The notes below the pieces were generated by a model that searched no databases, had not been told where the DNA came from, and worked only from the letters and a program-made list of their open reading frames with translations. From IMG/VR virus record IMGVR_UViG_3300044731_000587, positions 1-34,219 of that record: a stretch of DNA of 34,219 nt; one strand, written 5' to 3'. Below, piece after piece: positions 750 through 30,734 of the stretch (position 1 is its first letter; each line of letters begins with the position of its first letter). The stretch is from a virus. The translations under genes and the position numbers were made by a program.

Positions 750-1062
750 TTTTTAAAATAGTTAAATCCCTAATTACGTCGCCTGCATTTTTAACCGTGT
801 ACCTGAGTAATTTAAAACCCATTACGGAAGCCCGGTTATACTTTTCGCAATTTGCCGTGTAACCTACTAACGTTTGGTGCCCGCCAACCCCGCTAAAATG
901 GTTGCCGCCAATACCTTCGAACTCAATTAAAGTATTAAATTCCAGAATGTAATAATCGGATCGCCAACGGCGTGTAACATCGAACCGAAATTCTTCCGCT
1001 AATGTTAGGTTGTAGGCCCGGCAAAACATGTGAACATTTACGTCAAACGTCTTTTTACTCAT
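733..1062 (-). CDS. PD-(D/E)XK-type phage endonuclease (VRR-NUC-like)
   Basis: The 109-residue protein has the core of a small phage endonuclease. RFDVTRRWRSDYYI is followed by LIEFEG, so Asp36 and the Glu47-x-Glu49 pair are candidate metal ligands. A GGHQT-GY-N-KYN-A-GF-LLRYT stretch follows, typical of phage proteins annotated as VRR-NUC or Holliday-junction-type nucleases. It probably cuts branched or recombination DNA. It overlaps the YqaJ-type exonuclease gene by four bases (ATGA at 1059-1062) and belongs to the RecT-exonuclease unit. The class is well supported by motif; the substrate is inferred. Confidence 0.8.
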   Translation of the reverse strand: MSKKTFDVNVHMFCRAYNLTLAEEFRFDVTRRWRSDYYILEFNTLIEFEGIGGNHFSGVGGHQTLVGYTANCEKYNRASVMGFKLLRYTVKNAGDVIRDLTILKNGCRI

Positions 1063-1760
1063 TGTGCCGGGTTAAATAGGTTCGTATTCATCCATTCGCG
1101 GCACTCTAGCGCCCTTTTATTAATCGCCTGGATAATTTCTTCGTCCCGTTCTATTTCGATCTCAAAAACGCGCTCGTTTACGGGTATATCTTCATAAATG
1201 GAAAGGCGGTCGATTTCTTCGCACCCTTTTAGATAGTCGTAAGCTTCCAGGTCCGGACAATTTAGCTTATACCACAACGATTTTTTTTCCTGTTCAATTA
1301 AATTAAGCGGCGTATTGACTAAACAATAAGCAAGGGTTGCTGACTTCGCCCCGGTTAAGCTCATGTAACCTTGCAGCTGGAAAAAATAATCTTTATTAAG
1401 CGGCTCATTTTTGGCCTTAAAAAATGAAAAAATATCCCAGGAAGTTTTTATATCGGTAACGATCTCATTTTTTAATATATCCCACTCGCCCGTTATAAAA
1501 TCATTGCTCATTCGAGCTTTGTTGTTTACGTAGTAGTTTTTTTTAAACTTCGAATACAGGGTTATCGATTCTTCTTCCTGGGTTATACCTTTCTCTAAAT
1601 ACTTATTTTGAATGTTTTTAGATCTTCCGTACTTCTCATTAATAAATACTTTAATTAATTCAGATTTACAGGTTTCAGAAAGTTGCCCGGACTTTGTCCG
1701 GGCTTCAGTCATTATTGCGCCCAATGAGCTACAACGAAATTTTATATTATCGGCGTTCAT
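1059..1760 (-). CDS. YqaJ-like / lambda-exonuclease-type recombination nuclease
   Basis: The 233-residue protein carries the nuclease core GEWDI (Asp94) followed by VTDIKTS (Asp103 and Lys105), the D...DxK arrangement of the YqaJ/lambda-exonuclease family, with Glu62 in KGITQEEES as a further conserved acid. It should resect double-stranded ends 5' to 3', giving single strands for the RecT protein encoded immediately upstream (1757-2617, four-base overlap). The pair forms a standard phage two-component annealing recombination system. The length is a little short but within the family range. Confidence 0.88.
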   Translation of the reverse strand: MNADNIKFRCSSLGAIMTEARTKSGQLSETCKSELIKVFINEKYGRSKNIQNKYLEKGITQEEESITLYSKFKKNYYVNNKARMSNDFITGEWDILKNEIVTDIKTSWDIFSFFKAKNEPLNKDYFFQLQGYMSLTGAKSATLAYCLVNTPLNLIEQEKKSLWYKLNCPDLEAYDYLKGCEEIDRLSIYEDIPVNERVFEIEIERDEEIIQAINKRALECREWMNTNLFNPAQ

Positions 1761-2617
1761 TTTTCAGCGGGTGTTAATTCCATGTATTTTTCTTGAAACA
1801 TCTGGTTTAATTCCTCTGGAATTGAGCTCGAATAAACTTCCAATTCGTCGATAGTTTCGGCGGCGTCGATCAGTTCTTTTAGGCGCTCGACTTCCGGATT
1901 AACTTTTATTTCCTCATGGTCAACGTAAGTTACATTTTCGCCGGTTTCGTCGTTAATAACGGCCTGGTCAACCTTCACAGCGGTTTGCATTTCAATAGAT
2001 AGTATTCCCCACTTTGATAAGGTTGATTTTAAAACCGTCTTTTTTGCCATCGCGTCGAAATCGGTTTTCCAGGGCCCGTTATTATAACTTTTCGAATATC
2101 TTTTGCCGTGCTGCATTACCTTTTCAACGGTCCAATAACATGTCTTTTCGAACCCGTTTATCAGCTTAAAATAGGCGGCATAACCAACTATTTTTCCATC
2201 CCCGGGAAGATCGAAATTTGCGCTCAGTTTTTCAGTTAATGTATTAAATGATTCGAATTGATTTTCGTAAACTTCTATAACATTTATGTTCAAATATTGG
2301 CCGGATCTCTGGGCAAGCTGCACAAGGCCCTTTACGCCTAATTGAAACTGGGCCGCCTTTCCGTAAGGAACGATCCATGCGAAACCCAGATTTTGATTAA
2401 TCGGTAAATCCAGGGTTGCGGCCAACATTGCGGAGTTATAAACGCTAATTGGATCAGCATTTTTAAGCATCGAGTTATTCGCGGTAATTTGCAAAATTGA
2501 GCTTATGAACTGGGTTGATCGCTTCCCTAAAATATCGTTAAATCGGTTTTTAACGGCGGGTTTCTCGAAAAATGTTTTAATAGTATTTTCGATTTTTACA
2601 GGTGTTTTGTTTTCCAT
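1757..2617 (-). CDS. recT: RecT-family single-strand DNA annealing protein
   Basis: The 286-residue protein matches the RecT pattern: ILQITANNSMLKNADPISVYNSAMLAATLDLPINQNLGFAWIVPYG, then AAQFQLGVKGLVQLAQRSGQY, and later AMAKKTVLKSTLSKWG. These are the family signatures around residues 40-110 and 190-205. RecT anneals complementary single strands and works with the exonuclease at 1059-1760. The C-terminal third is acidic and probably disordered. The start ATG at 2615-2617 follows an AACCCCT box by five bases, as do many of its upstream neighbours. Confidence 0.93.
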   Translation of the reverse strand: MENKTPVKIENTIKTFFEKPAVKNRFNDILGKRSTQFISSILQITANNSMLKNADPISVYNSAMLAATLDLPINQNLGFAWIVPYGKAAQFQLGVKGLVQLAQRSGQYLNINVIEVYENQFESFNTLTEKLSANFDLPGDGKIVGYAAYFKLINGFEKTCYWTVEKVMQHGKRYSKSYNNGPWKTDFDAMAKKTVLKSTLSKWGILSIEMQTAVKVDQAVINDETGENVTYVDHEEIKVNPEVERLKELIDAAETIDELEVYSSSIPEELNQMFQEKYMELTPAEK

Positions 2618-4104: not shown

Positions 4105-4323
4105 TCAGTTCCAAAGTTCGAAAACAAGATTTTCTATAACCGACATTGGGGCGTTTTCGTCGTAACCATCGTTTATTAATTCCTCAATAACGCTATCGAC
4201 TAAACCGGCGTAACTCGAGTGTGTAAAACCGTCGTAATTATCTTCGTATTGCTCGAGAGCGTATGAAGGTAATGAATCAGCGTAATCATTAATTGCAAAT
4301 CTAATTTTTTGAGTAAGTGTCAT
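4105..4323 (-). CDS. Duplicated small acidic protein, copy 1 (72 residues)
   Basis: Starts MTLTQKIRFAINDYADSL and contains an HSSYAGLVDSVIEELI core. It is clearly paralogous to the 71-residue protein at 6882-7097: both have MTL-Q-I at the start, (H)(S/A)SYAGL-D-VI-ELI in the middle and SVI-E at the end. A longer frame to 4353 exists, but the paralogue's matching extension runs into its promoter block, so the MTL start is preferred. A conserved promoter/palindrome lies upstream (4368-4401) and a GGCGG/CCGCC hairpin follows the stop. The function is unknown. Confidence 0.78.
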   Translation of the reverse strand: MTLTQKIRFAINDYADSLPSYALEQYEDNYDGFTHSSYAGLVDSVIEELINDGYDENAPMSVIENLVFELWN

Positions 4324-4367
4324 ATTGAGTTTTTTAAGGGGTAAGTGAATCAACCGTTTTGATAAAT

Positions 4368-6881: not shown

Positions 6882-7097
6882 TTAGTGGTAATAATCGGCA
6901 ACGATCTCTTTAATAACTGAATCAGGTATAACGCCCCAATATTTGCGGTCAATCAGTTCGGCAATAACATCGTCCTTAAGGCCGGCGTAACTGGCATGAA
7001 TGTAATCGTAATCGTTTCCGTAAGCTTCGCGCATGCTTGGCGCAATTTTTTTCGTGTAATCTTCGATAATTTTGTCAATCCGTTGTGCTAGTGTCAT
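6882..7097 (-). CDS. Duplicated small acidic protein, copy 2 (71 residues)
   Basis: Starts MTLAQRIDKIIEDYTKKI and contains HASYAGLKDDVIAELI. It aligns along its whole length with the 72-residue protein at 4105-4323. The frame is open to 7148, but that extension would translate the promoter palindrome, so the ATG at 7095-7097 is the start. It is flanked upstream by the same promoter block and downstream by the strong GGCGG hairpin, so a whole expression cassette was duplicated. The role is unknown; the size, acidity and dedicated control would suit an early host-takeover or anti-defence factor. Confidence 0.8.
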   Translation of the reverse strand: MTLAQRIDKIIEDYTKKIAPSMREAYGNDYDYIHASYAGLKDDVIAELIDRKYWGVIPDSVIKEIVADYYH

Positions 7098-7125
7098 AAT
7101 CTGGGGTTTTTCGTTTTTCGTTAGG

Positions 7126-7159
7126 CAAAGATAGTATAATACTATCATATAAAATACAA
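7126..7159 (-). promoter_or_regulatory. Promoter with perfect 17-bp palindromic operator, copy 2
   Basis: On the minus strand TTGTATTTT is followed by GATAGTAT-T-ATACTATC and then TTTG. The -7 box TATCTTTG overlaps the right arm. The palindrome at 7130-7146 has eight perfect pairs around one central base. Identity with the copy at 4368-4401 is 28 of 34. It drives the 71-residue paralogue. Confidence 0.75.
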
Positions 7160-7215: not shown

Positions 7216-7887
7216 TTATTTTGCCGAAGCAAGGCCGAAACCCAGGAAAGCACCTAAAGCAACCTTAAACCCGGTTGTCTGGAACCATTTTTTGCGATCC
7301 TTAATATATATATTGCTCATTCCCTGCAACTGGACGTTTGGGTTATCTATATGTAACCTAACAACCTGGTCCCGTTTTCCAAACAACCGGTTAAACGGGC
7401 CCGTCCTGAGCGTATCACCCAGGGCGTAAGTAAACGCGCCGGTGCTAACTAATGAATCGATTAAAATGTTGCCGTTGGACAAAATTTGTCCATTTATAGT
7501 GAACCAGCGTTCACCCTTCGAGAAGGCAACCGGCACCCGAAGGTAATTTACCGAATCGATAAGCTCAGTTTCTGCAACCGGTATTTCGGTTTTTAAAATA
7601 TACCTGGTTTTAAACTGGATTATTTCTTTAGGCGTCCGGATCTTCATAACCCTAAGCGCAAATATTTCCTGCTCGTTTTTTTTAATTTCGGCGTCGTTAA
7701 TTTTGATCGTTACGGCCTGGGTATAAATTAAGCTGGAATCCTGCAACCTGGTAACCCGGTAACCCTGAATTTCTGAATCCTGTTTTCTGAGCTCTAAAAT
7801 ATAATCCCGGTTTAAGCTGCATGTTCTAATTAAAATTAGTATTAAAATAATACATGCTATTAAAACAAAATTAATCCCCTTATACAT
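7216..7887 (-). CDS. Membrane protein next to the lysis genes, spanin-like candidate (223 residues)
   Basis: Residues 5-22 (INFVLIACIILILILI) are a membrane helix, followed by a charged coiled-coil-like region, a beta-rich middle (about 95-185) and a short hydrophobic C-terminal stretch (KVALGAFLGFGLASAK). It resembles uncharacterised proteins encoded near lysis genes in Bacteroidota phages. An envelope-spanning, spanin-like job is conceivable, but there is no clear lipobox, so this remains a guess. It overlaps the 65-residue gene by eight bases and is the last gene of the late unit. Confidence 0.6.
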   Translation of the reverse strand: MYKGINFVLIACIILILILIRTCSLNRDYILELRKQDSEIQGYRVTRLQDSSLIYTQAVTIKINDAEIKKNEQEIFALRVMKIRTPKEIIQFKTRYILKTEIPVAETELIDSVNYLRVPVAFSKGERWFTINGQILSNGNILIDSLVSTGAFTYALGDTLRTGPFNRLFGKRDQVVRLHIDNPNVQLQGMSNIYIKDRKKWFQTTGFKVALGAFLGFGLASAK

Positions 7888-8077
7888 TAGTTCCAGTTAT
7901 TATTAATAGTTGAATCCAAAATTTAGCGAAATCATTTTTATTGCGAAGGTTATTTTCTAAAACTTTTTTCGCAAAGTTTAAGGGCATTTCCTTTTCCATC
8001 ACGTAATTAGAAACAACCATTATTAAGCGTTCATCCGCTTCCGCATCTGTTTTCGGTAAAAATGTTTCTACATTCAT
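7880..8077 (-). CDS. Small hypothetical protein, 65 residues
   Basis: Begins MNVETFLPKTDAEADERL and is helical, with a hydrophobic C-terminal part (FAKFWIQLLIITGTNV). Not recognised. It follows the PAS-HisKA gene by six bases and overlaps the 223-residue membrane protein gene, so the three are co-translated. It shows no similarity to a histidine-kinase ATPase domain. Confidence 0.6.
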   Translation of the reverse strand: MNVETFLPKTDAEADERLIMVVSNYVMEKEMPLNFAKKVLENNLRNKNDFAKFWIQLLIITGTNV

Positions 8078-8083
8078 TTTTAA

Positions 8084-8653
8084 TCAAATTTGCCGTGTTG
8101 CTTTTTTAACTAAGTCGTGAATACTTTTATCGAGCTGTTCAACGGATAAATTAACCATTTCGAGCAATTTAATATTTTCTTCATCAGTATTAGTAAAATC
8201 CTTCTCAATTAGCATTTTTACTAACCCTGCAATACTGGTTAAAGGTTGCCGTAATTCGTGCGAAAGCATGAAGCGAAAATCTTCCAAAAGTTGTTTTTGT
8301 TTTTCGTATTCGTGGCTCGTAATGCTGGTTACATCGGTTATAGGTAACCCAACAAAATGTAATGAATTTAGAATGAAATAAATATTCCAAAGATTCCAAC
8401 GTAAAGATCCGTTTTTTTGCTTCGTTTTAGCATAAAATCTAATCGGTAACGGCGCCCGGCTTTTAGCTAGATTAACCGAATCAACAAATTCACTCAGGTC
8501 GTAATTATCTGAAATGATTTCTGAAATGTTTTTCGGCTTTATGTGGCTGGAATACTCCTTAAACAAATCATTACTTCCAATAATAACCCCGGATTCGTCG
8601 GTTACTATGTAAAATAAATCAATCGAGTTAGTTAGAATATATCTTGCGCTCAT
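8084..8653 (-). CDS. PAS-HisKA protein lacking an ATPase domain
   Basis: The 189-residue protein has a PAS-like sensor region (about 10-110; FYIVTDESGVIIGSN and LHFVGLPITDVTSI) followed by a full HisKA dimerisation/phosphotransfer domain (about 119-186). The H-box SHELRQPLTSIAGL has the conserved phospho-acceptor His132. The chain stops just after the second DHp helix, and no HATPase_c motif (N, G1, G2 boxes) occurs here or in the next genes. It could dimerise with a host kinase or take and hold phosphate from a host relay; it cannot autophosphorylate alone. It has no membrane segment. Confidence 0.8.
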   Translation of the reverse strand: MSARYILTNSIDLFYIVTDESGVIIGSNDLFKEYSSHIKPKNISEIISDNYDLSEFVDSVNLAKSRAPLPIRFYAKTKQKNGSLRWNLWNIYFILNSLHFVGLPITDVTSITSHEYEKQKQLLEDFRFMLSHELRQPLTSIAGLVKMLIEKDFTNTDEENIKLLEMVNLSVEQLDKSIHDLVKKATRQI

Positions 8654-8700: not shown

Positions 8701-9219
8701 TTATGGTTTTAATGCAAACTTAATTTTGCAAATCATTTCAAACCAGTCGTTAAACGATCTAACCAGGTAAACAGAAGTGCAAGCAAGCATTATCGTTAGC
8801 TCAAATCCCAATACAACCCCGTTTAAGCCGTTTTGCGGCGTTATATAATCTTTTTTAGGGTGCATTACTATAAATTCGCCGGCGGTTCGTGTATCGCCTT
8901 GTTTTAGATATTTCAATTCATTCAGTTTTAATGTATCGGAAAACCGGATTATATTACCAGGTAATTCGACGTTTAATTTAAGCTCATTCACTTTTTTTTC
9001 TACGTAAACCATTTGCCCGGCATCCGAAATATAATATTTATAATTAACATTAAAAACGGGGTTCGTGTAATCCGGATTAAATTCAGTGAATTTGCCCTGG
9101 TTGATCGCATTATTATTTTCTTTTACGTGCCTATGTTTATGGATTTTGCATATTTCACCTATTACGCAAACCGGGTCAAGCGTATAAGTTACCAGCGTAT
9201 CTAAATTATTATTGATCAT
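8701..9219 (-). CDS. Hypothetical protein with C-terminal membrane helix, 172 residues
   Basis: A soluble N-terminal part has four cysteines/histidines near the start (CVIGEICKIHKHRH), and a middle beta-rich region is followed by one hydrophobic helix at about 131-153 (GVVLGFELTIMLACTSVYLV). No family is recognised. It overlaps the holin candidate by 11 bases and lies in the lysis block, so a role in host lysis timing or envelope disruption is possible. Confidence 0.6.
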   Translation of the reverse strand: MINNNLDTLVTYTLDPVCVIGEICKIHKHRHVKENNNAINQGKFTEFNPDYTNPVFNVNYKYYISDAGQMVYVEKKVNELKLNVELPGNIIRFSDTLKLNELKYLKQGDTRTAGEFIVMHPKKDYITPQNGLNGVVLGFELTIMLACTSVYLVRSFNDWFEMICKIKFALKP

Positions 9220-9418
9220 TTTTAACCCCCCTTTCTTTAGGTTTCCAAACCCACTTTAGCGTAATTACAGCGCCAATAATATAGGCGAATGTTTCTTTGT
9301 CTATTTGCTTCAAAAAGAACAGCCAAAACCCCGCAATTATTGCCATCGATCCGACGCAATAATTCCAGTATTCAAATATAATATTCAAAACATTTCGGAG
9401 TTTCTTCGGATCAATCAT
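9209..9418 (-). CDS. Holin candidate, 69 residues, two membrane helices
   Basis: Two hydrophobic helices are visible: about 16-36 (YWNYCVGSMAIIAGFWLFFL) and about 44-58 (FAYIIGAVITLKWVW). A charged, basic C-terminus (KPKERGVKNDQ) follows. Size, topology and location in the block containing the GH24 lysozyme fit a class II-type holin. Start and stop overlap the neighbouring genes (eight and 11 bases), typical of a lysis cassette. No sequence family was recognised. Confidence 0.6.
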   Translation of the reverse strand: MIDPKKLRNVLNIIFEYWNYCVGSMAIIAGFWLFFLKQIDKETFAYIIGAVITLKWVWKPKERGVKNDQ

Positions 9419-10187
9419 TTCGAACTATTTTAAAAGGTGCATTGCTATTAACATTGCGGCCCAAAAGATCAAAATAGGTTTTATTACTTTTTTTTTTATC
9501 CCTGCATTCAAAATAAGCAATATCCGAAACCGTCTGGTTGCCGTTTAAGTCGATTTCCCGAATTGCTAAATAATTAATACCGGCGTCGAAATTATCTGTT
9601 TGCACCTGGTAAACGCTCATTGCCGAATTATTTTCAATTTGTGGCTCGATGGTTTCCGCAACGTTCCAGCTAATTAAATCTTTAGAAATAATTAATTCAA
9701 ATCGATCAGTATTAGCATTAGAACACGTTTTAAATTCGACGTTTAAAAGTTCTTCACTCATAACCGCCGAAAGCCCGCAAAACTCAACCGCTAAAGGCGA
9801 AATTATTAACGCGTAAGGACAAAAGTTATCGATCAATTCGGACGAAATCGAGTAACAAATTACAATGCTATCAATCCCGGCGTCGATTAAATTACCGTAA
9901 CCAATAAAAATACATTCGGAGTTATATTGCCGGATCTCATTAACTACTAAAGGGCTCCCAAACGGGCTGGAATAGCTGAACCGGGCTTGCTGGGTTGCCA
10001 GTATTTTTTTAACTTTTACGCAAATAGTGGTATCAGTTATATTAGCTGAAATACATTGCCCGGAATTATTTAATGAATTAAACGATGGAAAGCCCCAAAA
10101 GGATTTTACGGCCCTGGTTGAATCGCATTGGGCGTTTACGAAAGTTACTAATATTACTAATATTTTGGAAATGATAAATTTTTTCAT
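9411..10187 (-). CDS. Secreted protein with type IX sorting-like C-terminus, 258 residues
   Basis: Residues 1-19 form a signal peptide ending VNA before QC, the NAQ cleavage context common in Flavobacteriia. The mature part has many cysteines and beta-rich segments, including NVEFKTCSNANTDRFEL and INYLAIREIDLNGNQTVSD. The end (TYFDLLGRNVNSNAPFKIV) matches the core pattern of type IX secretion C-terminal domains (Y-D-L-x-G-R-x-V). Such C-termini direct proteins to the cell surface in Bacteroidota. Finding one in a phage lysis block suggests release or display on the host surface; the role is not known. Confidence 0.68.
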   Translation of the reverse strand: MKKFIISKILVILVTFVNAQCDSTRAVKSFWGFPSFNSLNNSGQCISANITDTTICVKVKKILATQQARFSYSSPFGSPLVVNEIRQYNSECIFIGYGNLIDAGIDSIVICYSISSELIDNFCPYALIISPLAVEFCGLSAVMSEELLNVEFKTCSNANTDRFELIISKDLISWNVAETIEPQIENNSAMSVYQVQTDNFDAGINYLAIREIDLNGNQTVSDIAYFECRDKKKSNKTYFDLLGRNVNSNAPFKIVRND

Positions 10188-10240: not shown

Positions 10241-10690
10241 TTACATGAAGTAAAGTTTCGATTCAGCTTTGCGGCGGCGTGTCAACCCGGTTGATCTTTT
10301 ACCCCCGGAAAGGTTCCATTTAGCGAATTCTAGCGCAATAGATTCATCTTTAGTGTTAATCTTTGCTTTACGAAACAAAGTCGAACCAGCAAGCGCGCCC
10401 GGGCCCACATTATAAGCGAAGGAAACCAGGGCGTCAAATTGATTTTGGTTTAGTATAACATTAAAAAATAACCCGTTTACCGAATCTTCATATTTTTTTA
10501 GGGTTAATTTAAAAAGTTCTTCGGCGTGCTGCTTATCTTTTAATTTATCCCCTAATTTAACGGCTGTTTTGTCTGGGTAATAAGTTGATCCGTAACCTAT
10601 CGTTGGAACTCCTGAGCTGCATAAATACGCTTCCAGTCGTAAGCCCTCAAAACTTTTAATTAAATCGATTCCCGTTTGACTAATTTTCAT
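10241..10690 (-). CDS. Endolysin: GH24 (T4-lysozyme-like) muramidase
   Basis: The 149-residue protein is a single GH24 domain: LIKSFEGLRLEAYLCSSGVP then TIGYGST at the N-terminus, and NQFDALVSFAYNVGPGAL with GLTRRRKAESKLY at the end. The E-8aa-C-5aa-T triad is Glu15, Cys24 and Thr30, as in many phage endolysins that use Cys in place of the Asp of T4. It cuts the MurNAc-GlcNAc bond of peptidoglycan. There is no signal peptide, so it needs the holin. It overlaps the 70-residue gene by 11 bases. Confidence 0.93.
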   Translation of the reverse strand: MKISQTGIDLIKSFEGLRLEAYLCSSGVPTIGYGSTYYPDKTAVKLGDKLKDKQHAEELFKLTLKKYEDSVNGLFFNVILNQNQFDALVSFAYNVGPGALAGSTLFRKAKINTKDESIALEFAKWNLSGGKRSTGLTRRRKAESKLYFM

Positions 10691-28527: not shown

Positions 28528-29271
28528 TTATTCGTTGCTGCAAAAAATATACGTGTTAGGCGGGTAAAATGGATACGTTTCTAAATGCAGCGGAATCGTT
28601 CTGGAACTTTTAACTAATTTAAACAATGTTTTTAACTTTTCGATAACTGTAACATAGGTGCTAATTTTATTATCCATGTCGAAGGAATATTCGAAAACCA
28701 TTTTTTTAATATTTAAATTGTTTTCCAGCTCATTAATAATTGGGATTTCAGCGCCCTCAATATTCATTTTGATACAATTATAACCGTCCTTAATCAGTGA
28801 ATTAAACCCGGCGGCCGTTACGCTGGTTACGGTTATGTTTTTCTTTTTACTGCTATTTAGATAATTGCCGTAAAGCGTGTGGCGCCTGAACGAAGCCGGG
28901 TTAGTAGATTCATAAAAGTTTAATGTTTTGCCGTCTTGGCTTTGCGGAACAACCGCCGCTTTAATGATCTCGATTTTATCGGTAACATTATTTAATTCGG
29001 CATTTATCCGGATCATTTCACAATTATCAATTTGCGGTTCGTATGCTCTAACCTTGCAACCTTTTACAGCTGCATAACAAGCAAACGCCCCAATGTTAGC
29101 TCCCAGGTCCAACCACTTTTCGCCCTCGTTGATCGTAAACGGTAACATCGGTTTTTGATATGCTTTTCTAACCCAAGTTTCATCAATACTTTTTTGGTCG
29201 CTGGATCCATCACGTAAGGCGAATTTACCGGCTGTTTTCGTGTTCTTTGGAATGTAGATTGTTTTATTCAT
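28528..29271 (-). CDS. FkbM-type SAM-dependent methyltransferase, 247 residues
   Basis: The SAM-binding motif I is WLDLGANIGAFACYAA (53-68), motif II is VRAYEPQ (74-80), and KMNIEGAEIP (168-177) is the FkbM-specific acidic motif. FkbM enzymes usually methylate hydroxyl groups of small molecules or sugars. The gene overlaps the TET/JBP-like dioxygenase by eight bases and precedes the terminase. An O-methyl transfer onto the hydroxyl created by the dioxygenase is a plausible but unproven role. It does not have the PC or ENV motifs of a DNA cytosine-5 methyltransferase. Confidence 0.82.
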   Translation of the reverse strand: MNKTIYIPKNTKTAGKFALRDGSSDQKSIDETWVRKAYQKPMLPFTINEGEKWLDLGANIGAFACYAAVKGCKVRAYEPQIDNCEMIRINAELNNVTDKIEIIKAAVVPQSQDGKTLNFYESTNPASFRRHTLYGNYLNSSKKKNITVTSVTAAGFNSLIKDGYNCIKMNIEGAEIPIINELENNLNIKKMVFEYSFDMDNKISTYVTVIEKLKTLFKLVKSSRTIPLHLETYPFYPPNTYIFCSNE

Positions 29272-30124
29272 TATTTAGGTTTTTAAGGTGCTTTTTATAT
29301 CCGGTTAGCAAGTTTGGATCGCTTCGCCAACGGGATTCGATTTCGTTCCGGATTTCTTTTATTCGTTCTAATTCTAATTCGTACGGGTAACAATTTTTCA
29401 TGGTTGCCAGACTGTAAAAAACGCAAGAACTCCGGAACCCGTTTTCCTCGATTTGTTTTATAGGTGTAACGCCGTGAATGATCGCTTGCCCGTCAAATAA
29501 AATTAGCGCGCCGTCGCCCTGTTCGAATCCAATATTATATTCAGGGCAAATTAAATTACCGCCAATAATACCTTCTTTAATGATCAAAACATTTGAGTAA
29601 ACATTTTTGAAATTACCCGTGTCCCGGTGGTATTTAATAGCATGGTTTACATTAATGTTAATCGTTGTAAAAGGGGTATTTTTAATTAAATATTCCTTTT
29701 CAACATTTTCATCAATGATCTTTAAATTCATTTCGTATTGCTCAGGTAAAAGTTCCTTATAGATTTCATTAATTATTAAGCTGAAATCCATTACGGCGGC
29801 CGAAGATTTTTTTTGATTTTTTGTATCGGCGGTTATCCTGCAATAATTATTTCTATTCGGCACCCTGGGCAACGATCCGAAAATTGCTGCTTGGGAAGCT
29901 ATCCCGTTGCTTCTGGCACTTTTAGTGAATTTGATTTTATTAACTATTTTTTTTAATTTATTAATCTTTTCACTATCTATAATTTTATAAATAATGATCG
30001 CTTTTCCGCCTTCGTAGATAATGCAATCTTTATTTATGATCCTTGCGCAATCGGTTTTTTTCGGGGTTGTTTTTAATAAATGATCGAAATTGATTTCGGA
30101 TTTATTAACGTGTAAAACTTCCAT
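29264..30124 (-). CDS. TET/JBP-like 2-oxoglutarate/Fe(II) dioxygenase, 286 residues
   Basis: The C-terminal half has a double-stranded beta-helix signature. TTININVNHAIKYHRDTGNF supplies His166 and Asp168 (HxD), IIGGNLICPE is the typical strand turn, and FDGQAIIHGVTPI supplies His217, with Arg231 (RSS) binding 2-oxoglutarate. The HRDTGN, GG-L and HGVTP-RSS-VFYSL spacing is that of TET/JBP-type phage enzymes, which hydroxylate 5-methyl groups in DNA. No cytosine-5 methyltransferase is encoded, so the substrate may be thymine or host-made 5-methylcytosine. It is coupled to its neighbours. Confidence 0.8.
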   Translation of the reverse strand: MEVLHVNKSEINFDHLLKTTPKKTDCARIINKDCIIYEGGKAIIIYKIIDSEKINKLKKIVNKIKFTKSARSNGIASQAAIFGSLPRVPNRNNYCRITADTKNQKKSSAAVMDFSLIINEIYKELLPEQYEMNLKIIDENVEKEYLIKNTPFTTININVNHAIKYHRDTGNFKNVYSNVLIIKEGIIGGNLICPEYNIGFEQGDGALILFDGQAIIHGVTPIKQIEENGFRSSCVFYSLATMKNCYPYELELERIKEIRNEIESRWRSDPNLLTGYKKHLKNLNNE

Positions 30125-30125
30125 T

Positions 30126-30734
30126 TTAATGATTTAATATTAACCAGGAAATTGCTTCTGAATTGTTTTTAAATGCCTTATCGACTTTTAATTTATTGAG
30201 TTTAAATAATACTTCGTCGTAATCTTTTTTCTCGATAAATATCTCGAATTTCTTCATGTCTGAATTTAGATAATCCATTGCAAACTCGTCGGTATTTTTA
30301 TAACGATCCGTGTTGCTCATGTTATCGGTTATTTCTTCCGGATCTTCGGCACCGGGGTTATCTGGGATTCTCCAAACGTCCATTCCCCAGGAAGCTAAAT
30401 CGTTCGTTTCCCATTCGTTTGCCAGGTTGTCCCAGTCCCATTCACCGAACCCAACATTATCTTTAATTATAAATTCTTTTTGCTGGGCTTCTGTTAGATC
30501 GCTGGCAACTATAACCGGCACTTCCTTCAATTTTGCTTCTAAGCACGCTTTTAAGCGCATATTGCCGCCTAAAACGATGTTATGTTCGTTTATAACAATC
30601 GGTCGAATCCTGAGCATTTCGGGAAACTCTTTAATCGAGTTAACCAGCTTTAAAAATTTGTCGTCTTTAATGATCCGGGGGTTGTTCGGGTTCGGCTTAA
30701 TATCCGAAATCTTTAGGAGTGTAATTTCTATCAT
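30126..30734 (-). CDS. ParB/sulfiredoxin-fold protein, 202 residues
   Basis: Residues 1-95 form a ParB-like N-domain: LKISDIKPNPNNPR, IVINEHNIVLGGNMRLKACL and IVASDLTEAQQKEFIIKDN. The C-terminal part (100-202) lacks the usual ParB helix-turn-helix and is acidic. Phage proteins of this type are often found with DNA-modifying enzymes and terminases. It starts four bases after a TAACTTTG box and is followed one base later by the dioxygenase gene. It could bring the modifying enzymes to DNA, or be a nuclease; both are inferred. Confidence 0.8.
   Translation of the reverse strand: MIEITLLKISDIKPNPNNPRIIKDDKFLKLVNSIKEFPEMLRIRPIVINEHNIVLGGNMRLKACLEAKLKEVPVIVASDLTEAQQKEFIIKDNVGFGEWDWDNLANEWETNDLASWGMDVWRIPDNPGAEDPEEITDNMSNTDRYKNTDEFAMDYLNSDMKKFEIFIEKKDYDEVLFKLNKLKVDKAFKNNSEAISWLILNH

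Follow-up and report, generated by a model that had tools for sequence, protein, structure and literature searches.

The IMG/VR virus record IMGVR_UViG_3300044731_000587, analysed here over a window of 34,219 nucleotides (the whole stretch of DNA under study, positions 1 to 34,219 of the record), encodes a soluble protein of 189 aa in which a PAS domain is followed by a complete DHp hairpin with an invariant set of phospho-acceptor residues, and in which no catalytic domain is present. This PAS-DHp protein is under purifying selection as judged from substitution rates, is encoded on more than 400 IMG/VR stretches, and belongs to an obligate block of genes that includes the phage lysozyme. The reading put forward here, held tentatively as quite possible though short of probable, is that the protein is a kinase-less phospho-acceptor that would act in trans on host two-component signalling, together with the downstream gene product g65, and would serve late infection or lysis.

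The PAS-DHp gene (8084-8653, minus strand) was defined by its open reading frame, Pfam matching and an AlphaFold2 model. The HisKA family (PF00512) was matched at residues 129-181 with 40.9 bits against a gathering cut-off of 26.9 (E 2e-10), and it was also matched by 37 of 37 aligned relatives (E <= 0.01). No PAS family of Pfam was matched (E <= 1) and TIGR00229 (PAS) scored 12.8 bits, below its cut-off of 22.9; because the PAS family models all fell below cut-off, the PAS assignment is structural. The AlphaFold2 model, built with 37 sequences (mean pLDDT 80.5, pTM 0.60), consists of a mixed alpha-beta domain at residues 5-107 (8333-8641, minus strand), followed by helices at residues 113-150 (8204-8317, minus strand) and 158-188 (8090-8182, minus strand). 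The first domain is, by this model, a PAS fold: PAS-B structures were matched with Z scores of 13.6-14.6, the highest being ARNT PAS-B, which was superposed on residues 10-105 at 1.9 A over 95 residues. The top whole-length Foldseek matches were LOV-histidine kinases, in which the placement of the domains differs (rmsd about 27 A), and a structure search of BFVD returned mostly kinases from giant viruses, along with short PAS proteins, none of them near the PAS-DHp protein. DHp helix 1, seen in both the Pfam match and the model, carries the H-box S131-H132-E-L-R-Q-P137 (8243-8263, minus strand; His132 codon at 8258-8260), which was placed by an alignment of 151 distinct proteins, and helix 2 of the model ends in the invariant residues L181, K184, A185 and R187. 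The original prediction, made from the letters of the DNA, had described a PAS region and a complete DHp domain with SHELRQPLTS and His132, ending where an ATPase domain would begin. Strand, length and H-box are as it claimed, the PAS region was borne out by structure alone, and the modelled DHp hairpin is complete, with the stop codon directly after helix 2.

Relatives were collected from IMG/VR by searches of increasing breadth. The window protein retrieved 13 loci and its alignment 57, and with three wider profiles 343 of 377, 418 of 469 and at least 403 of 599 candidate stretches were confirmed. The first two profile sets (343/377 and 418/469) are biased towards the H-box, FRFMLSH having been one of their two patterns; the window-protein search, the alignment search, the third wider profile and a scan anchored on the neighbouring gene g223 are independent of it. 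A total of 151 distinct relatives, the FRFMLSH-biased sets included, were pooled from the matches listed (at most 80 loci per IMG/VR search). Their lowest pairwise identity was 0.43 and the median 0.58, and the columns invariant in all 151 include F126, R127, F128, S131, H132, E133, P137, L181, K184, A185 and R187. Residue 136, at H+4, was Gln in 148 proteins and Ser in three, and was never Thr or Asn. An intact H-box in related phages had been proposed as a check on the original prediction, and the S131-H132-E133 triad, present in 151/151 pooled proteins, was likewise found in every set fetched without an H-box pattern (13/13, 56/56 and 80/80 loci, the 56 coming from 57 loci of which one was cut off) and in 78/78 loci anchored on g223, so that no relative was seen to have lost the histidine. 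The position of the stop was the same in 55/55, 77/77 and 78/78 proteins with the stop on the contig. Among the 13 members of the clade that contains the window, dN/dS was about 0.05 (mean dN 0.061, mean dS 1.21; 68 of 78 pairs finite). A small branch (L029, L059 and L119) has H-E-L-L-S-P in place of H-E-L-R-Q-P, a shorter DHp loop and a length of 183 aa, and still has the His, the Glu and the C-terminal tail.

Among cultured phages, tblastn of the window protein against INPHARED gave no match at 0.01, and the same search with two relatives returned weak records (two with L029 and six with L058). No match was obtained by megablast of window positions 1-25000, nor by PADLOC.

HATPase_c was found in none of 29 phage records (the window and 28 relatives), in a scan that was positive in 14 of 14 control genomes, and a receiver domain in none of 16; the phage records scanned for either domain may be fragments. 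A complete histidine kinase has HATPase_c in the same protein, and here the stop follows helix 2 wherever it lies on the contig. Spo0B and ChpT, in which a DHp dimer serves as a phosphotransfer protein devoid of kinase activity, retain a degenerate ATPase-like domain after the DHp, whereas the PAS-DHp protein has nothing after its DHp and a PAS domain before it. A separate catalytic partner protein, of the kind that a split kinase would use, was found in none of the 29 records. It had been stated that nothing downstream restores an ATPase domain, and this agrees with the HATPase_c result and with the next gene, which encodes a three-helix protein of 65 aa. The uniform stop, taken with the absence of HATPase_c from the 29 records, rules out a frameshift or truncation of a former ATPase-bearing kinase, the event that had been named as counting against the prediction, and a phage-encoded receiver as the partner of the PAS-DHp protein is ruled out for the 16 records that were scanned.

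The gene order around the PAS-DHp gene is strict and runs from a phage lysozyme (endolysin; 10241-10690, minus strand; PF00959 E 5e-39; phrog_7) through a 69-aa hydrophobic protein (9209-9418, minus strand), a possible holin by its place and hydropathy, to the PAS-DHp gene, g65 (7880-8077, minus strand) and g223 (7216-7887, minus strand). The immediate upstream neighbour, g172 (8701-9219, minus strand), has one transmembrane-like segment near its C-terminus. Neighbours were counted in the window and 56 loci, 57 sequences in all. The lysozyme lay upstream in 46/46 sequences in which at least 1900 bases were available, g65 lay directly after the PAS-DHp gene in 54/54 sequences with room, and g223 followed in 49/51 with room, the two misses being sequences with no g223 match at the blastp threshold. 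These counts bear out the earlier placement of the gene in a lysis block. In the converse scan, anchored on g223, 80 loci were listed and the PAS-DHp gene and g65 were found upstream in 78/78 with enough upstream DNA; the two left out (L283 and L304) begin too near the contig start. The PAS-DHp stop overlaps the g65 start as ATGA in 104 of 126 distinct genes, whereas the clade of the window has a short intergenic gap instead, which is 6 bases long in the window. The terminase of the window gave no alignment in 16 more distant block-bearing records, a blank that carries no weight by itself, but the query did match 20 close relatives; because the block stays where terminases are unalignable, it is more conserved than packaging.

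The g65 protein, an obligate neighbour and candidate partner, was modelled with confidence as three helices (pLDDT 89) with a best Foldseek match of only E 1.9 to any known fold, and Leu18, Met31 and Pro32 were invariant in its 57 aligned members. No transmembrane-like window was detected in either the PAS-DHp protein or g65, and neither g65 nor g172 had a convincing family match in Pfam or NCBIfam. The g223 protein has an N-terminal transmembrane segment and is a weakly spanin-like or DUF6549-like membrane protein (DUF6549 in 6/9 members, best E 3e-4; Rz-like spanins in 2/9 members, best E 0.004). The lysis block also encodes a 258-aa protein (9411-10187, minus strand) whose start is signal-peptide-like and whose C-terminal tail we take to resemble type IX secretion sorting tails; it had no Pfam match (E <= 1) and no NCBIfam match.

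Elsewhere in the window, RecT (1757-2617, minus strand; E 1e-47) marks the far end of the genes on the lysis side, and the frame after it (1059-1760, minus strand), which had no exonuclease match, is likely to be its partner exonuclease. Two short open reading frames (4105-4353 and 6882-7148, both minus strand) without a Pfam match at E <= 0.01 have translations that look like paralogues. Just upstream of the terminase genes, a TET/JBP-type oxygenase (29264-30124, minus strand; PF12851 E 4e-21) is flanked by an FkbM-type methyltransferase and a ParB_N protein (28528-29271 and 30126-30734), and the three possibly form a DNA base modification set.

One PAS-DHp copy was located outside the virus records, as an open frame of 206 aa on a contig of 3.7 kb in a Bacteroidota MAG, by a genome-contig search that used an H-box pattern. 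The remaining matches in the same MAG were in open frames of at least 414 aa, the best non-phage match reaching 42 bits; in 42 genomes of the order of this MAG, all other matches listed were in frames of at least 374 aa. Apart from the MAG copy, no match was found in 247 Bacteroidota genomes at E 1e-12, and plasmids gave four weak matches only, in sensor proteins of the PAS or CHASE kind. These two results rule out that a sampled host was the source of a recent capture. An integrase of family PF00589 was found in 0 of 22 records, which may be incomplete, and as far as this one integrase family can tell, a temperate lifestyle was rejected. The simplest reading is that the carriers are virulent phages of Bacteroidota.

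The nearest host matches, at about 42 bits, are cytoplasmic PAS kinases of Bacteroidota of the F-V-Y-S-x-S-H-D-L-R-S-P type, which likewise have a PAS domain before the HisKA hairpin; they differ from the PAS-DHp protein in the length of their frames, which is 374-1257 aa among the host matches listed, and at H+1, where 20 of 28 host kinase segments have D in place of E. Residues R127, K184, A185 and R187 are fixed in the phages, and the 28 host segments have mostly V, Y, S and N there; these phage-specific constants suggest that the PAS-proximal end of the bundle bears a specific surface. Mean entropy of the phage DHp was 0.42 and 0.85 in the PAS-proximal half and 1.17 and 1.82 in the receiver-facing half, the half of the bundle at which receivers are known to dock from structures of histidine kinases with response regulators. 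The host segments had a gentler slope in the same direction (1.55 and 1.74 against 1.90 and 2.55 in the receiver-facing half); host values for the PAS core are meaningless, as few host segments reach it. The variability of the receiver-facing half is evidence against one fixed receiver partner, and the pattern of conservation is a better fit to contact with a kinase catalytic domain or with a phage partner such as g65.

In the proposed mechanism, the PAS domain would sense some signal and the protein would dimerise through its DHp hairpin. His132 would accept phosphate in trans from host two-component proteins, either from a histidine kinase of the host by way of its catalytic domain or from a host receiver that already carries phosphate. 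With Glu at H+1 and neither Thr nor Asn at H+4, the protein would accept phosphate, then hold it or pass it on, and would not dephosphorylate a response regulator; host phospho-signalling would be diverted late in infection, and the signalling state would be read out with the coupled g65 in the lysis block. We infer the phosphorylation, the partner, the direction of phosphate flow and the effect on lysis from the features of the protein and its genes. Phosphorylation in trans is chemically plausible, because EnvZ is described as retaining activity with its HisKA and HATPase on separate chains and because HisKA proteins without HATPase occur, at 1556 of 42417 (about 3.7%) in SMART (PMC3591291). 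According to PMC3510030, the acid at H+1 of HisKA proteins is needed for kinase and not for phosphatase activity, N or T at H+4 is needed for phosphatase activity, and CrdS with Gln at H+4 had no measurable phosphatase and kept roughly 60% of its kinase activity. The invariance of Glu133 together with Gln or Ser at H+4 therefore suggests that the protein has been selected to accept phosphate and not to strip it from regulators. Caution is needed with the second residue, since its loss of Thr and Asn is not specific to the phages: the 28 host segments have S in 10, G in 7, A in 6 and T in 5, so that 23/28 share the loss. It may also be that the His motif is conserved for packing, which would count against an acceptor role.

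The earlier interpretation is supported in part: a kinase-less PAS-DHp protein with an intact phospho-acceptor and a place among the lysis genes is borne out, and mixed dimers with a host kinase or the draining of phosphate from a host relay, which had also been suggested, are candidate roles. Several other explanations were weighed against the acceptor reading. Glu133 and the phosphatase-dead signature at H+4 make phospho-acceptor chemistry more likely than a decoy that does nothing but dimerise, which would need no Glu133, and the invariance of this residue counts for the acceptor role. Such a decoy would be a dominant-negative heterodimer, a protein-level antikinase that inactivates a dimeric host kinase by exchanging its own DHp hairpin into the dimer, with the histidine unused. 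The complete hairpin of the model would suit it, as would conservation that peaks where the bundle would join a catalytic domain, and RetS-GacS kinase crosstalk, which works by heterodimer, is a cellular precedent. A further precedent is PIT4, a phage protein described as binding to domains of histidine kinases (PMC10714779). The heterodimer does not require the invariant His and Glu, however, and a close host kinase template was not found, either in the copy-bearing MAG or elsewhere in the 247 genomes at the scores given above; we consider it unlikely. Transfer of phosphate between two host proteins, in the manner of an HPt shuttle that rewires the flow and does not drain it, would use the same residues as the acceptor reading, and a phosphatase-poor motif suits a transfer protein; set against the variable receiver-facing half and the lack of phage receivers, it is distinctly improbable.

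The strictest genetic link of the PAS-DHp gene is to phage genes, namely g65 and the spanin-like gene, and a partner in the lysis block is therefore as likely as a host kinase alone. One explanation leaves host phospho-signalling uninvolved, and in it a phage-only complex of the PAS-DHp protein and g65 is a scaffold that controls the holin or spanin and times lysis, the PAS domain sensing energy or redox. The strict order from lysozyme to spanin-like gene, the 4-base coupling to g65 and the retention of the block beyond the reach of terminase alignment all speak for it, but the unvarying exact phospho-acceptor motif is left unexplained and both proteins lack a transmembrane segment; it is a minor possibility, though a real one. 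An ordinary captured fragment, a broken host kinase with no selected function, could draw on the share of HisKA proteins in SMART that lack HATPase (PMC3591291) but is hardly credible, and as stated it was refuted by the low dN/dS, the invariant motif and stop, and the presence of the gene in all 78 testable loci.

Bacterial HisKA proteins without HATPase are already known, as is one phage protein, PIT4, for which binding to host kinase domains is described. Split histidine kinases, as described in PMC3591291 (CheA3/CheA4 of Rhodobacter sphaeroides; split EnvZ), share with the PAS-DHp protein a phospho-accepting domain that lacks an ATPase and needs phosphorylation in trans; the PAS-DHp protein differs in being phage-encoded, in lying in a lysis block and in that the search of phage records gave no catalytic partner; it also lacks the HE/DxxN/T phosphatase motif that the same source gives for the bifunctional ones. 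PIT4 of Pseudomonas phage LSL4 is likewise aimed at host two-component signalling through kinase domains; compared by its description in PMC10714779, it is an early gene product from a motility screen, whereas the PAS-DHp protein is itself a DHp with the acceptor His and is encoded in the lysis block. In a survey of jumbo phages, the receiver domain described is a divergent one that has no relation to two-component kinases, and it is not a PAS-DHp protein (PMC7824862). The statement that no characterised phage protein of this form was known held in the open-licence PMC literature, where neither a phage PAS-DHp protein nor a DHp in a lysis block was found.

The literature searched gave no case of a phospho-acceptor domain that lacks its kinase and is a constant part of the lysis block on hundreds of phage contigs. 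Should the protein prove to be phosphorylated, it would be a case of a phage tapping host two-component signalling without a kinase of its own, and it would open a direct route to learning whether lysis is adjusted to the signalling of the host. On the broadest reading, which we regard as rather doubtful, virulent phages of Bacteroidota, as a widespread clan, would carry in the PAS-DHp protein and g65 a dedicated signalling module that couples when or how lysis occurs to the flow of phosphoryl groups through host two-component systems. The sensor, lacking an engine, would borrow host kinases and report the state of the host to the phage.
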